A stretch of 41,029 nucleotides of DNA, from contig DSAD01000257.1 of assembly GCA_011372875.1 (NCBI GenBank), forward strand, positions 1-41,029, in the 5' to 3' direction. This document shows positions 30,089 through 41,021 of the stretch, piece after piece; position 1 is the first letter of the stretch; each line of letters starts with the position of its first letter. Under the pieces are notes generated by a model. It was not told the origin of the DNA. It did not search any database and worked only from the letters and a program-made list of their open reading frames with translations. A program made the position numbers and the translations under genes. The DNA is from Deltaproteobacteria bacterium (GTDB lineage Bacteria; Desulfobacterota; Desulfomonilia; UBA1062).

Positions 30089-30400
30089 TTACAGGGCGAC
30101 CCCCTGGAATGACAACAATATATTCAGCCCCTTTTCATCCGCCCTGGTAAAGCTTACCGCAATACCGCAATCCGTTTTTCTTATAACCCTGCCTTGAGCC
30201 CAGATGATCTTCCCGAACTCTTCGGCATCAAGGCTTGCAATGATATAACCTGTGAGATCCTGCAGCGGGGTATCGGTACTGATATACATACCGCCCTTGC
30301 TTATATTGTTCACCCGGCCCATCTTATAGGCATATCCATCATCCCTGAAGGCAACCTTCATATCTACCCTTGCCCGCTTATGCAATCTTTGCTCTTCCAT
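30089..30400 (-). CDS. PilZ domain protein
   Basis: EEQRLHKRARVDMKVAFRDDGYAYKMGRVNNISKGGMYISTDTPL has RxxxR-type and (D/N)xSxxG-type motifs. Start at internal Met (MEEQRLHKRA). Confidence 0.8.
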   Translation of the reverse strand: MEEQRLHKRARVDMKVAFRDDGYAYKMGRVNNISKGGMYISTDTPLQDLTGYIIASLDAEEFGKIIWAQGRVIRKTDCGIAVSFTRADEKGLNILLSFQGVAL

Positions 30401-30550
30401 GACCCAGAACACCTCCCGCCTGCATGAAAAATCTGCTGCAACTTCCCGTCAAAGAGATTATATTCCAATGCCTACTATAGTATACAGGAATATCAAGGAT
30501 CACTTCAAGCATATAAAAAATTGGTTTCATCAATTGGCAAGAACACCACG

Positions 30551-36234: not shown

Positions 36235-36254
36235 AGGGTACAGGGTATAAGGTT
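36235..36254. repeat. Inverted 20-bp copy of the heptamer array at 3229-3248
   Basis: AGGGTACAGGGTATAAGGTT is the exact reverse complement of 3229-3248 AACCTTATACCCTGTACCCT. Confidence 0.8.
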
Positions 36255-36282
36255 GCGAAAAATCCTGATATGGAATAACAAA

Positions 36283-37287
36283 ATGGATATGGACATATTG
36301 ATCGTCAAGCTCGGTGCCCTGGGCGATGTGGTCAACACCCTGCCACTTGCCATCACCCTTAAGAAACAACTGGGGGCTCATATACACTGGGTAGTTGAAC
36401 CGTTGAGCTATCCGCTCGTGGCCCACCACAGGTGTGTCGACAGTACCATTGTGTTCGACAAGCATAACTGGATACAGTCCCTGCCGGGTGTAATCCGGCA
36501 GATAAGAAAGCAGCGGTTCGATATCTGTCTCGATCTGCAAAGGATTATCAAATCAGGTTTGCTTTGCCTTGCATCAAGGAGCACACGTCGTATCGGGTTT
36601 GACCAGCACCGCTGCAAGGAGATGACCGGGATTTTTCCCTTTGATCGTATCCCTGCGTCCGACCCCGGAAGGCATATGCTGCTTCAGTACCTTGAATTTG
36701 CAGAGTATCTCGGAATACAAGACCATGCAATATGCTGGAATATACCGGTAGACGAACATGTTCCTTCCGGGCTTCCATCACAATATCTCGTATTGAATAT
36801 AGGGGCCACCAAAGAGGCAAACAAATGGACACCCCAGGGGTTTGCATCGCTCGCGATGGCAATCTCTGGAAAGTATTCCGTCCCCTGCGTACTTACCGGC
36901 GTCAGTCAGGACAGGGCAATGGCGGACACGATTATAGATATTGCAGGAAAGCACGTTATCGATCTTGTGGGCAAGACATCCCTTCAGGATCTGATCAATG
37001 TCCTGAACGGTTCATTGGCAGTGGTAAGCTGCGACACAGGCCCTATGCATCTGGGAGTCGCCCTGGGCAGGGAGGTGATAGCACTGTTCGGCCCTGCAGA
37101 CCCGTCAAGGACCGGGCCGTATCGGGGTCACGTCATCAAGAAACAACTTCATTGCTCTCCCTGCAATAAAAGGGCATGCAAGGATCCTGTTTGCATGACC
37201 TCGATTCGCAGTGAAGATGTGATGGAAAAGATAGACCTTGTCCTAAAAGCCCATGGGCTTCAGGCCCGCTCAGACACAACGGAATAG
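36283..37287 (+). CDS. Glycosyltransferase family 9 / ADP-heptose:LPS heptosyltransferase-like
   Basis: MDMDILIVKLGALGDVVNTLPLAITLKKQ...VLNIGATKEANKWTPQGFASLA...VVSCDTGPMHLGVALGREVIALFGPADPSRTGPY. ATG 36283 preferred over TTG 36253. Confidence 0.9.
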   Translation: MDMDILIVKLGALGDVVNTLPLAITLKKQLGAHIHWVVEPLSYPLVAHHRCVDSTIVFDKHNWIQSLPGVIRQIRKQRFDICLDLQRIIKSGLLCLASRSTRRIGFDQHRCKEMTGIFPFDRIPASDPGRHMLLQYLEFAEYLGIQDHAICWNIPVDEHVPSGLPSQYLVLNIGATKEANKWTPQGFASLAMAISGKYSVPCVLTGVSQDRAMADTIIDIAGKHVIDLVGKTSLQDLINVLNGSLAVVSCDTGPMHLGVALGREVIALFGPADPSRTGPYRGHVIKKQLHCSPCNKRACKDPVCMTSIRSEDVMEKIDLVLKAHGLQARSDTTE

Positions 37288-37289
37288 GA

Positions 37290-38744
37290 TCAGGCCCTGG
37301 GGCATCTCCATGAATCTACATGATCACCTTCAGGGGTGCAATAAAGGATATCCCTTTTCTCAGAGCACCTCCATACATCCTGAAACAAGGTTACGGGGTC
37401 ATCTCCGGTACAACCGGCATATGCTCTCAGGAATCTCATCCGCATGCCCAGGCTGATATACACCGGGATGCTCGTGTTGATCTGTACAAGATTTTTCAGT
37501 CTCTTTGCATACTGCAGGAAACGCCTTTGTTCTATACGGTCGGTATCAAGCAGATAAAATCGAGGGACTGCAGGATCGACCTTGATGTTACATGCCTTGA
37601 GATCGGCATGGTATATATTAAGGGCATGCATTGAACCGATCATCTCCCCAAATGCAGATACAACACCCATCTTGTCCCTGAAACAAAGGTCCTTGAACTC
37701 AGTACAGAAAAAGACATCGAGATCCGGATGATACAGCATTTTGGTAACAAGCACACTCGAGCGGTCTTCATACACACCTACAGCAGCGGGGTCTGCAACG
37801 CCTATGCCGTTAAAATAGAGGGTGAGCAGCCCTTTCCACGAACGCAGCGCATACTCGGAACACAACGGCCCTGGACGTTTGTATGTCTTGACACAATAGG
37901 AATCCACCTCGGAGAGTTGTGTCTTTTCCTGATATTTCAGGACATTTCTCCGCTCGGCAATATTCCTGACATGTCTGCCAAGCAAGGATTCAAGGTCAAG
38001 AGCATCCCCCATAAACACATATGCCCTGTAGTTTTCCCCTTTAATTTCGTGTGTAAAGATCCCCGGCTTCAGACACCGCTCCACCAGCTTCTTCACGTAT
38101 CGACGCCTCGAATGCAGAGCCTTCGCGCGTATCTCTTGTGCAAGACCTTTTGATTCATAAAGGCTCCCGATTCTTTTCAGTGCGTCTTCAAGTTCGTCAT
38201 CCCCGATATCATAAACAGCCAGAACCTGAGAGAAAAGGGCTATGACATGGCGAGGTCTGATCACCCTGCAGGGGTTTACTTCATAGACATCCAGCAGGTA
38301 TGGCCTGTCAGAGTCGTCAAGCACGATATTGCCCAAATGCATGTCGGAAAAGAAAAACCCGTTCTTCAGGAGTTCAACAGTCATATCAAGCATGACTGAG
38401 GCCTGCTTCTGCCTTTCGAGATCATGCAGACCCCGGCACGGATGCACGGCCTTTGTAATAAGCGCGCTTGAGGCTGCAAGGCGTATATGATCAACAACTT
38501 CCGGGACGTTCAGGCCACAGCCCTTCAAGTGTCTGAGCATGTCCGCCTCATGCAGTGTCCTCGGCCGGAGAAGATTTCTCAGTTTTGCTACCGGGCCCTC
38601 AGGATCATATATCTTGACGAAATATTCAGGGGTGGTGCCCCTGTCCAGCCGGTATACTCTCCGTATGGACCTCTCCTGTATAAGACACCACTCGTGCTCA
38701 ATATACCTCGATGAGATAAGATCTCTTATATGGGTATATTTCAT
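37290..38744 (-). CDS. Protein with two tandem LPS-kinase (Kdo/WaaP)-like domains
   Basis: First kinase-like unit YFVKIYD...HEADML...FFFSDMHLGNIVLDDSDRPYLLDV; second YCVKTYK...IYHADLKACNIKVDPAVPRFYLLDTDR. Confidence 0.82.
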   Translation of the reverse strand: MKYTHIRDLISSRYIEHEWCLIQERSIRRVYRLDRGTTPEYFVKIYDPEGPVAKLRNLLRPRTLHEADMLRHLKGCGLNVPEVVDHIRLAASSALITKAVHPCRGLHDLERQKQASVMLDMTVELLKNGFFFSDMHLGNIVLDDSDRPYLLDVYEVNPCRVIRPRHVIALFSQVLAVYDIGDDELEDALKRIGSLYESKGLAQEIRAKALHSRRRYVKKLVERCLKPGIFTHEIKGENYRAYVFMGDALDLESLLGRHVRNIAERRNVLKYQEKTQLSEVDSYCVKTYKRPGPLCSEYALRSWKGLLTLYFNGIGVADPAAVGVYEDRSSVLVTKMLYHPDLDVFFCTEFKDLCFRDKMGVVSAFGEMIGSMHALNIYHADLKACNIKVDPAVPRFYLLDTDRIEQRRFLQYAKRLKNLVQINTSIPVYISLGMRMRFLRAYAGCTGDDPVTLFQDVWRCSEKRDILYCTPEGDHVDSWRCPRA

Positions 38745-38765: not shown

Positions 38766-39800
38766 TCAGACTTTTCCTGTATCCTCACCCATGCAGGGTT
38801 TCTCCCTTTCAAGCAAGGTCCTGCAGGCATCCATGACCTCGTCCGCCCCCAAACTCCTCATGCAGTATATATCCTTGCATGACCGGTTAAGATAACACGG
38901 GGAACACTTCATCTCCTTTCTCACCACAATGCTGTGAGTGTTCTGCGGTCCTACATAGTACGGATCGGTAGGTCCGAACAGGGCAACCACCGGGATATCC
39001 GCAGCCGAAGCCATATGCATTACCCCGGAATCAATACCCACAAAAAGGGCAGCCTTTTTCAGCAGGGGATATAATTCCCGCAGTCCCAGGGCACCTGTCA
39101 GGTCGATAACATCGATCTCTTCCCGGCCGGAGCGCTCGGAAACATATCGAGCGATCAGGCCGTTGCACTCGTGGGTATCTCCCCCTCCCACGAGAACAGC
39201 CGAAAGACCGTGCTCGCGATACAGCGAGACAATGACCTCGGCATACTTCTGTTCGTCCCATGCCTTGGCAAGTCTCCTGCTGGAGGCGCCTGCAGAGACC
39301 ACTACATACTTTTCAGGAAGACCGGACACAGAGCATTCCTGCTGTACGGCAAGCAGACCCACGTAATCGTTCTTGACAATGTTCATGCCGAGTCTTTCGA
39401 GCAGACGCGCATTGTTGATCCAGCAGTTGTGTCCTGCAACTGTCTCTTTTACATCCAGGGCAATGTCCCAGGGAAAATGGACAAACCCTGCCTTTATCCC
39501 TGCAGAGCTCAGCGCGGTAAGCAGCATGGCCTCCTGAGAACGGGCAAGGGATATGAGCATGTCGTAGCCGTTGCGGTGAAGCCTTCTTGCCAGGTCAAGT
39601 CTTCCTGCGTAGCTGTCGTCCCTGATGTATATGCGCTCAACATATGGTGAATCCTCAAGCAAACCCCTCAGGTAAGGTTTCACGACCGAATGGATACTTG
39701 CACCGGGACAGTTATCCTTTAGCGCCCTGAGCAACGGCAGGGAAAAGACCAGATCCCCGATCTGGTTGAGATGGATAACACAGATCTTTTCAATCTTCAT
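38766..39800 (-). CDS. Glycosyltransferase family 9 / heptosyltransferase-like
   Basis: MKIEKICVIHLNQIGDLVFSLPLLRALKDNCPGASIHSVVKP...LFVGIDSGVMHMASAADIPVVALFGPTDPYYVGPQ. Confidence 0.92.
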   Translation of the reverse strand: MKIEKICVIHLNQIGDLVFSLPLLRALKDNCPGASIHSVVKPYLRGLLEDSPYVERIYIRDDSYAGRLDLARRLHRNGYDMLISLARSQEAMLLTALSSAGIKAGFVHFPWDIALDVKETVAGHNCWINNARLLERLGMNIVKNDYVGLLAVQQECSVSGLPEKYVVVSAGASSRRLAKAWDEQKYAEVIVSLYREHGLSAVLVGGGDTHECNGLIARYVSERSGREEIDVIDLTGALGLRELYPLLKKAALFVGIDSGVMHMASAADIPVVALFGPTDPYYVGPQNTHSIVVRKEMKCSPCYLNRSCKDIYCMRSLGADEVMDACRTLLEREKPCMGEDTGKV

Positions 39801-39809
39801 GGCATTTCA

Positions 39810-41021
39810 CTACAGAAAGAAGTTGTTGTCCTCAACCACTTCGAGATTATCCACACTCTCACCCGAAGATATAAAACGTTCTATCCACCAGTTGACATGA
39901 TGGTAAAAACACACGACCACATTGCATTCCTGTCCGGCGTCGAAGTTCCTGATGGATTTATCAAGGGCGCCGTGGGTCTTATCGAACATATCGAGATTCT
40001 TATAGCCGTCACTGCCTGCTATCCTGCCCTTGGCAACACCACGGTATGCCGGACAGTGAAAGACCCCTGAAGGTGCAAGCACTGTTCGGAAAAACTGGCT
40101 GTGACACACATTCGGCTGCCTTTTGAGTTCATGAACCTTCCTGTCCATCATTGCATGAAGGTTGACACTCTCAAGTATTGCCACCTGAGCGTTGTGTTTT
40201 GCCTTGGCAAGGTTCTCCCGAATCCGCTGAATAATACTGTTTTCCCGCTCGGCATCCGTATCACTGAACAGAGACTCCTTTTTCGAACCGTCCAGCCTTA
40301 GGAGACAAGGCTTGAATGAGATATAATCGAAGTCATATTCTCCGGCAAGTTCCACTGCCTCGTTGATCTCTTCAATATTCGGACAGATCTCTTTTCCATT
40401 CATGAAAATCCCTTCCCAGACAATGACATATGAATATCCGAGAGATATCTTCGGATTATCCTGTTTGATCTGCCTGGCCTCGGTCAGTATCTTCTTCAAT
40501 GTCACATTTTTCCCGGGGAGGTGAGCCTTATAAAAGGTTTCTTCCCGGGCAGCATCGATCGACAGCCTCAGCCAGTCTCCCTCCTGCAGGAGATCTGCCA
40601 CCGCTGCAACCCGCTCGAGCCGGGAACCGTTCGTCACGATACCCACCTGAAGCGATCTGCCCCGGCAATAACGGACTACCTCTTCAAAGTCCGGGTGCAC
40701 GGTAGGTTCACCTCCACCGATAAGAATTACCGAGAGAAGGCCTTTTTGCACAAGGGTGTCGATACTGTGCCTGATGGTATCAAGATTCAGGGCCTCACCA
40801 GTATTTATGATCCCCGAATCCACACAGTGCGGGCAACTGAAGTTGCAAGCAGATGTAAGATCAAGGTTTATTGATACCGGTCCCATTGAAGGAAGACCTT
40901 CCATCCGATTGCATCCCCTGCGTCCTCTCTCCCAGAGGATATATTTCTTGAGATTTTCAATAACCGATCTCTGCCTGAGTTTTGCACTGAAATCATGCTC
41001 TTTGTCTTTGAGTTGTTCCAT
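39810..41021 (-). CDS. Radical SAM protein with Cys-containing C-terminal region
   Basis: LDLTSACNFSCPHCVDSG (CxxxCxxC), LIGGGEPTVHPDFEEVVRYCRGRSLQVGIVTNGSRL; later Cys in PNVCHSQFF, GVFHCPAYRG, QECNVVVCFYHHVNWW. Confidence 0.92.
   Translation of the reverse strand: MEQLKDKEHDFSAKLRQRSVIENLKKYILWERGRRGCNRMEGLPSMGPVSINLDLTSACNFSCPHCVDSGIINTGEALNLDTIRHSIDTLVQKGLLSVILIGGGEPTVHPDFEEVVRYCRGRSLQVGIVTNGSRLERVAAVADLLQEGDWLRLSIDAAREETFYKAHLPGKNVTLKKILTEARQIKQDNPKISLGYSYVIVWEGIFMNGKEICPNIEEINEAVELAGEYDFDYISFKPCLLRLDGSKKESLFSDTDAERENSIIQRIRENLAKAKHNAQVAILESVNLHAMMDRKVHELKRQPNVCHSQFFRTVLAPSGVFHCPAYRGVAKGRIAGSDGYKNLDMFDKTHGALDKSIRNFDAGQECNVVVCFYHHVNWWIERFISSGESVDNLEVVEDNNFFL

Follow-up and report, generated by a model that had tools for sequence, protein, structure and literature searches.

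A widespread tandem kinase of deltaproteobacteria and its probable double phosphorylation of inner lipopolysaccharide sugars

The window, which is the whole stretch of 41,029 nucleotides that we analyzed, is the entire contig C3 of the source genome. It carries the gene order radical SAM, GT9 glycosyltransferase, double kinase, convergent with a second GT9 gene. The kinase gene is a 484-aa ORF with an ATG start and a TGA stop, and the purine-rich GAAAGGCGG lies immediately upstream of it; its minus-strand orientation had not been given in the original prediction. The features discussed below are the following:

37290..38744, minus strand: tandem (double-domain) LPS-kinase-like protein, 484 aa (ORF; PF06293 in two stretches; AlphaFold2)
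38040..38744, minus strand: domain 1 (D1), residues 1-235, with kinase residues K44, alpha-C E66, D134, H136, N139, and D152
37293..38039, minus strand: domain 2 (D2), residues 236-484, with K286, D381, N386, and D400, and S302 in place of the alpha-C Glu
38766..39800, minus strand: GT9 (heptosyltransferase-family) glycosyltransferase (PF01075, 1.2e-30), upstream of the kinase across a 21-bp gap
39810..41021, minus strand: radical SAM protein (PF04055, 3.3e-17), opening the apparent operon as far as the contig shows it
36253..37287, plus strand: convergent GT9 glycosyltransferase (PF01075, 1.1e-33), a neighbor conserved in relatives

The nearest models for the upstream GT9 are heptosyltransferases III/II (TIGR02201, 4.3e-31, under the model cutoff), and the nearest for the convergent GT9 is heptosyltransferase I, or WaaC (TIGR02193, 2.2e-37, also under the cutoff). 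Elsewhere in the window, a small minus-strand ORF at 30089-30412 resembles, by eye, a PilZ-type (cyclic-di-GMP binding) protein.

Two sets of kinase-like motifs had been proposed within the 484-aa frame, and every one of them is present: YFVKIY (K44), SDMHLGN (D134 and N139), and LLDV (D152) in D1, and YCVKTY (K286), HADLKACN (D381 and N386), and LLDTDR (D400) in D2. The two halves are homologous over most of their length, with hhalign aligning D1 to D2 at 99.8% probability (E = 2.4e-27, 222 columns) such that D134 faces D381 and E66 faces S302. A full-chain AlphaFold2 model, built from an alignment of 26 relatives, contains two kinase folds (pLDDT 93.9, pTM 0.88) and not the single fold that would have spoken against two tandem domains, and D2 modeled by itself also adopts a kinase fold (pLDDT 95.0). 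In a Foldseek search, the top match to the full chain was the EGFR kinase-domain duplication, a tandem kinase, with the tandem JAK seventh. These proteins likewise place two kinase folds on one chain, but they are eukaryotic protein kinases and the likeness is one of layout only.

The two-domain architecture amounts to a variant within the Kdo/WaaP family and not to a new kind. The whole protein matches PF06293 in two stretches (E = 1.4e-13, 51.2 bits against a curated cutoff of 21.3), and D2 alone exceeds the cutoff (1e-10, 41.8 bits). D1 alone falls below the reach of PF06293 and matches APH, RIO1, and Bud32 models, the APH/Bud32-type models outscoring those of LPS kinases. The catalytic Lys, catalytic Asp, and metal-binding Asp of the family are found in both domains; the alpha-C Glu is found in D1 (E66) and is absent from D2 (S302). 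When each half was compared by profile with solved structures, WaaP (6DFL) was the top match for both (1.9e-11 for D1 and 4.1e-14 for D2), and with wider-family profiles the match reached 1.2e-29 for D1 and 9.5e-17 for D2. Scores against the equivalogs are far lower: the RfaP model NF011703 (cutoff, 170 bits) gives 23.1 bits for D2 and no match for D1, and the KdkA model NF002475 (cutoff, 142 bits) gives 31.8 bits for D2 and 15.7 bits for D1. NCBIfam scores were tried as a way of telling whether each domain is a WaaP or a KdkA, and this was abandoned, as the Kdo-kinase and RfaP models match both about equally.

The heptose I kinase WaaP (RfaP; 6DFL) has its kinase fold and Lys/Asp/Asp set in common with both domains, but it is a single domain of ~260 aa bound to acyl-ACP and has E78, whereas the tandem protein has two domains and its D2 lacks the Glu. 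KdkA, the Kdo kinase (NF002475/PF06293), is the best NCBIfam match of D2 and has the HxDxxxxN loop in common with it; KdkA is also single domain, however, and D2 scores far under its equivalog cutoff. The heptose II kinase WaaY (RfaY), the expected functional partner should one domain act on heptose II, gives only weak matches, and these to some D1 relatives. Our literature search for tandem LPS kinases found none described. PA5006 of Pseudomonas aeruginosa, encoded in the waaP-wapP-wapQ operon and regarded as a putative LPS kinase (PMC8707732), has at least 493 aa; judged by this size, it may be another double-domain example.

The tandem form is present in 18 of the 24 genomes of the source genome's family; the six that lack it are five of one genus and one other. 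Across the phylum, 172 of 394 sampled genomes have some match, and at least 60 of the genomes listed have one that spans both halves. After GT2-kinase fusions and single-domain proteins were dropped, 96 candidates yielded 85 distinct tandem proteins, whose sources include planctomycete records and no fewer than 15 families of the phylum; the named relatives are deltaproteobacterial and Syntrophaceae metagenome-assembled genomes. Both halves are under purifying selection, with dN/dS of ~0.23 for D1 and ~0.16 for D2 against the nearest relative. The double kinase is an old, widespread protein in deltaproteobacteria, and the rarity of the fusion that the original prediction had implied does not hold.

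Among the 85 tandem proteins, the active site of D1 is nearly invariant (Lys 84/84, alpha-C Glu 83/84, catalytic Asp 84/85, Asn 83/85, metal Asp 85/85). That of D2 is kept in ~96% (Lys in 81, catalytic Asp in 82, Asn in 82, metal Asp in 83). The alpha-C position of D2, where the motif SWKG (residues 302 to 305) had been flagged as lacking the Glu, is Glu in none of the 85 and is mostly A, S, or G. Stand-alone D2 proteins (family f2), encoded beside GT9- and GT2-like genes, are likewise Glu-less but keep their Lys, Asp, Asn, and Asp. The missing Glu thus defines the D2 lineage as a whole and is not peculiar to the protein of the window.

Plainly dead domains are rare, occurring in 4 of the 85 tandem proteins, and they appear in settings where an intact counterpart is also encoded. 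Two are in one genome, G010, in which copy L042 has a dead D1 (E66A, D134E, N139D) and an intact D2, and copy L062 has an intact D1 and a dead D2 (K286Y, D381G, N386R, D400P). The GC contents of the two copies are similar (62.5 and 63.6%). In the family tree they are placed apart, each beside members with matching gene neighbors, although several of these branches are weakly supported. With 86% completeness and 7% contamination in the G010 bin, the copies might derive from two organisms. The other two are in G189 and G269 (loci L176 and L178), where the tandem D2 is dead and the same locus encodes a stand-alone D2 whose Lys, Asp, Asn, and Asp are intact; these genomes belong to one family and were counted as one event, giving two independent losses overall. 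Domain inactivation looks compensated, as would be expected if the two domains have separate, nonredundant activities.

The gene neighborhood connects the protein to glycan synthesis. The radical SAM, GT9, and double-kinase genes with a facing GT9 are kept in L028-L032 and L034-L038, the facing GT9 of L035 lying past the contig end, and a Gfo/Idh-like gene is additionally found upstream in L029-L032 and L034-L038. This conserved pair of radical SAM protein and Gfo/Idh-type oxidoreductase ahead of the GT9-kinase genes perhaps modifies a core sugar. A second setting (L033, L040-L043, and L063) places the double kinase between DnaJ and an FmdB-like zinc ribbon, near DnaK, and an LpxL-like acyltransferase, which can follow DnaJ in this order, lies beside the tandem kinase twice (G008 and G010). 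In other families, the immediate neighbors are mainly GT1/GT4 (42/127) and GT2 (15/127) genes rather than GT9. The source genome encodes LpxC, WaaA, and HldE domain I, together with a GmhA-like match just below its curated cutoff and an HldD match well below its own. Only two GT9 genes were found in that genome, and both flank the tandem kinase. A separate 244-aa single-domain protein on contig 25 has Kdo kinase as its nearest model (98.5 bits, under the cutoff).

Several relatives (L029-L032, L034, L036-L038, and L061) also encode a GT2 glycosyltransferase with a C-terminal PF06293 kinase, a fusion of ~560 to 600 aa exemplified by L061:5274-6947 and situated near a heptosyltransferase-I-like GT9 gene. 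The window's own genome yielded no PF06293 match of this fusion type.

We propose that the protein is a bifunctional LPS inner-core kinase of two homologous WaaP/KdkA-type domains, probably acting on both heptoses, a reading to which we assign a probability of about 0.5. Conservation and compensated loss suggest that both domains are catalytic. The weakest step is the naming of the two heptoses as acceptors, suggested by the two flanking heptosyltransferase-like GT9 genes and the separate Kdo-kinase-like gene. Each domain would bind ATP-Mg, and the two would phosphorylate separate hydroxyls on the nascent lipid A-core at the cytoplasmic face of the inner membrane, with one inner-core heptose per domain, as if the enteric WaaP and WaaY pair were merged in one chain. 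The fusion would hold both active sites on one acceptor and set a 1:1 ratio, and in D2 the ATP-binding Lys would have to be held in place although the usual alpha-C Glu is missing.

Other accounts of the locus differ widely in plausibility. An assembly or frameshift artefact joining two genes deserves practically no credence: homologous full-length single frames recur across 18 genomes of the family as well as many further ones, and these independent assemblies refute it. We found nothing in its favor, the sole apparent split (G174, L138) sitting in a masked or gapped stretch. That split had been considered as a gene fission and was set aside as uninformative because it coincides with a run of N. 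A protein kinase or other atypical kinase of the RIO, Bud32, or APH type, unconnected to surface glycans, is very improbable. The models matched by D1 lean this way, as does PRPK/Bud32, the nearest PDB fold of D2 alone, but D2 exceeds the PF06293 cutoff, WaaP is the best profile match for both domains, and the neighbors are glycan-synthesis genes.

The alternatives that accept an LPS-kinase-like protein concern what its domains do. In WaaP, the alpha-C Glu engages the catalytic Lys (K51-E78), a pair well conserved in WaaP homologs (PMC6147952), and D2, which always lacks this Glu, could therefore be weak or inactive. We nonetheless consider it unlikely that, on the pattern of the JAK kinases, D1 is the only active kinase and D2 a pseudokinase-like domain that regulates or binds the acceptor. 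The absence of the Glu from all 85 D2s while D1 keeps it, and the three tandem proteins that pair a plainly dead D2 with an intact D1, would fit such a division of labor. Against it stand the retention of the other active-site residues in D2, a dN/dS lower in D2 than in D1, the occurrence of dead D2s only where another intact D2 is encoded, and the same residue set in stand-alone D2 proteins. The original prediction offered two options, a bifunctional kinase or an active domain paired with a regulatory one; conservation, together with losses that look compensated, favors two working domains. Two active domains could also act on other substrates, such as a Kdo plus a heptose or the sugars of another glycolipid or exopolysaccharide, which is a realistic minority possibility. 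The generic GT1/GT4 and GT2 neighbors in other families, the near-equal matches to the Kdo-kinase and RfaP models, and the radical SAM and Gfo/Idh-like genes of the f1 operon, suggestive of an unusual sugar, point in this direction, whereas the flanking genes in the window's own family are GT9 and the Kdo-kinase-like protein is encoded separately on contig 25.

The bifunctional inner-core kinase remains our preferred reading, with two phosphates probably placed by the double kinase on inner lipopolysaccharide sugars. We hold somewhat more tentatively, at slightly short of even odds, to the wider picture of widespread single-chain bifunctional LPS-core kinases in which the D2 site works without the alpha-C Glu and duplicates split the activities by reciprocal loss. 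The outer membrane gains stability from inner-core phosphates, and in P. aeruginosa WaaP is essential (PMC6147952). A conserved double kinase would account for core phosphorylation by a single gene in many deltaproteobacteria, and paired active sites in one chain would be useful for dissecting specificity. The D2 subfamily seems to work without a residue normally held essential, and reciprocal loss in duplicates, if true, would provide a natural experiment for matching each phosphate to its domain.
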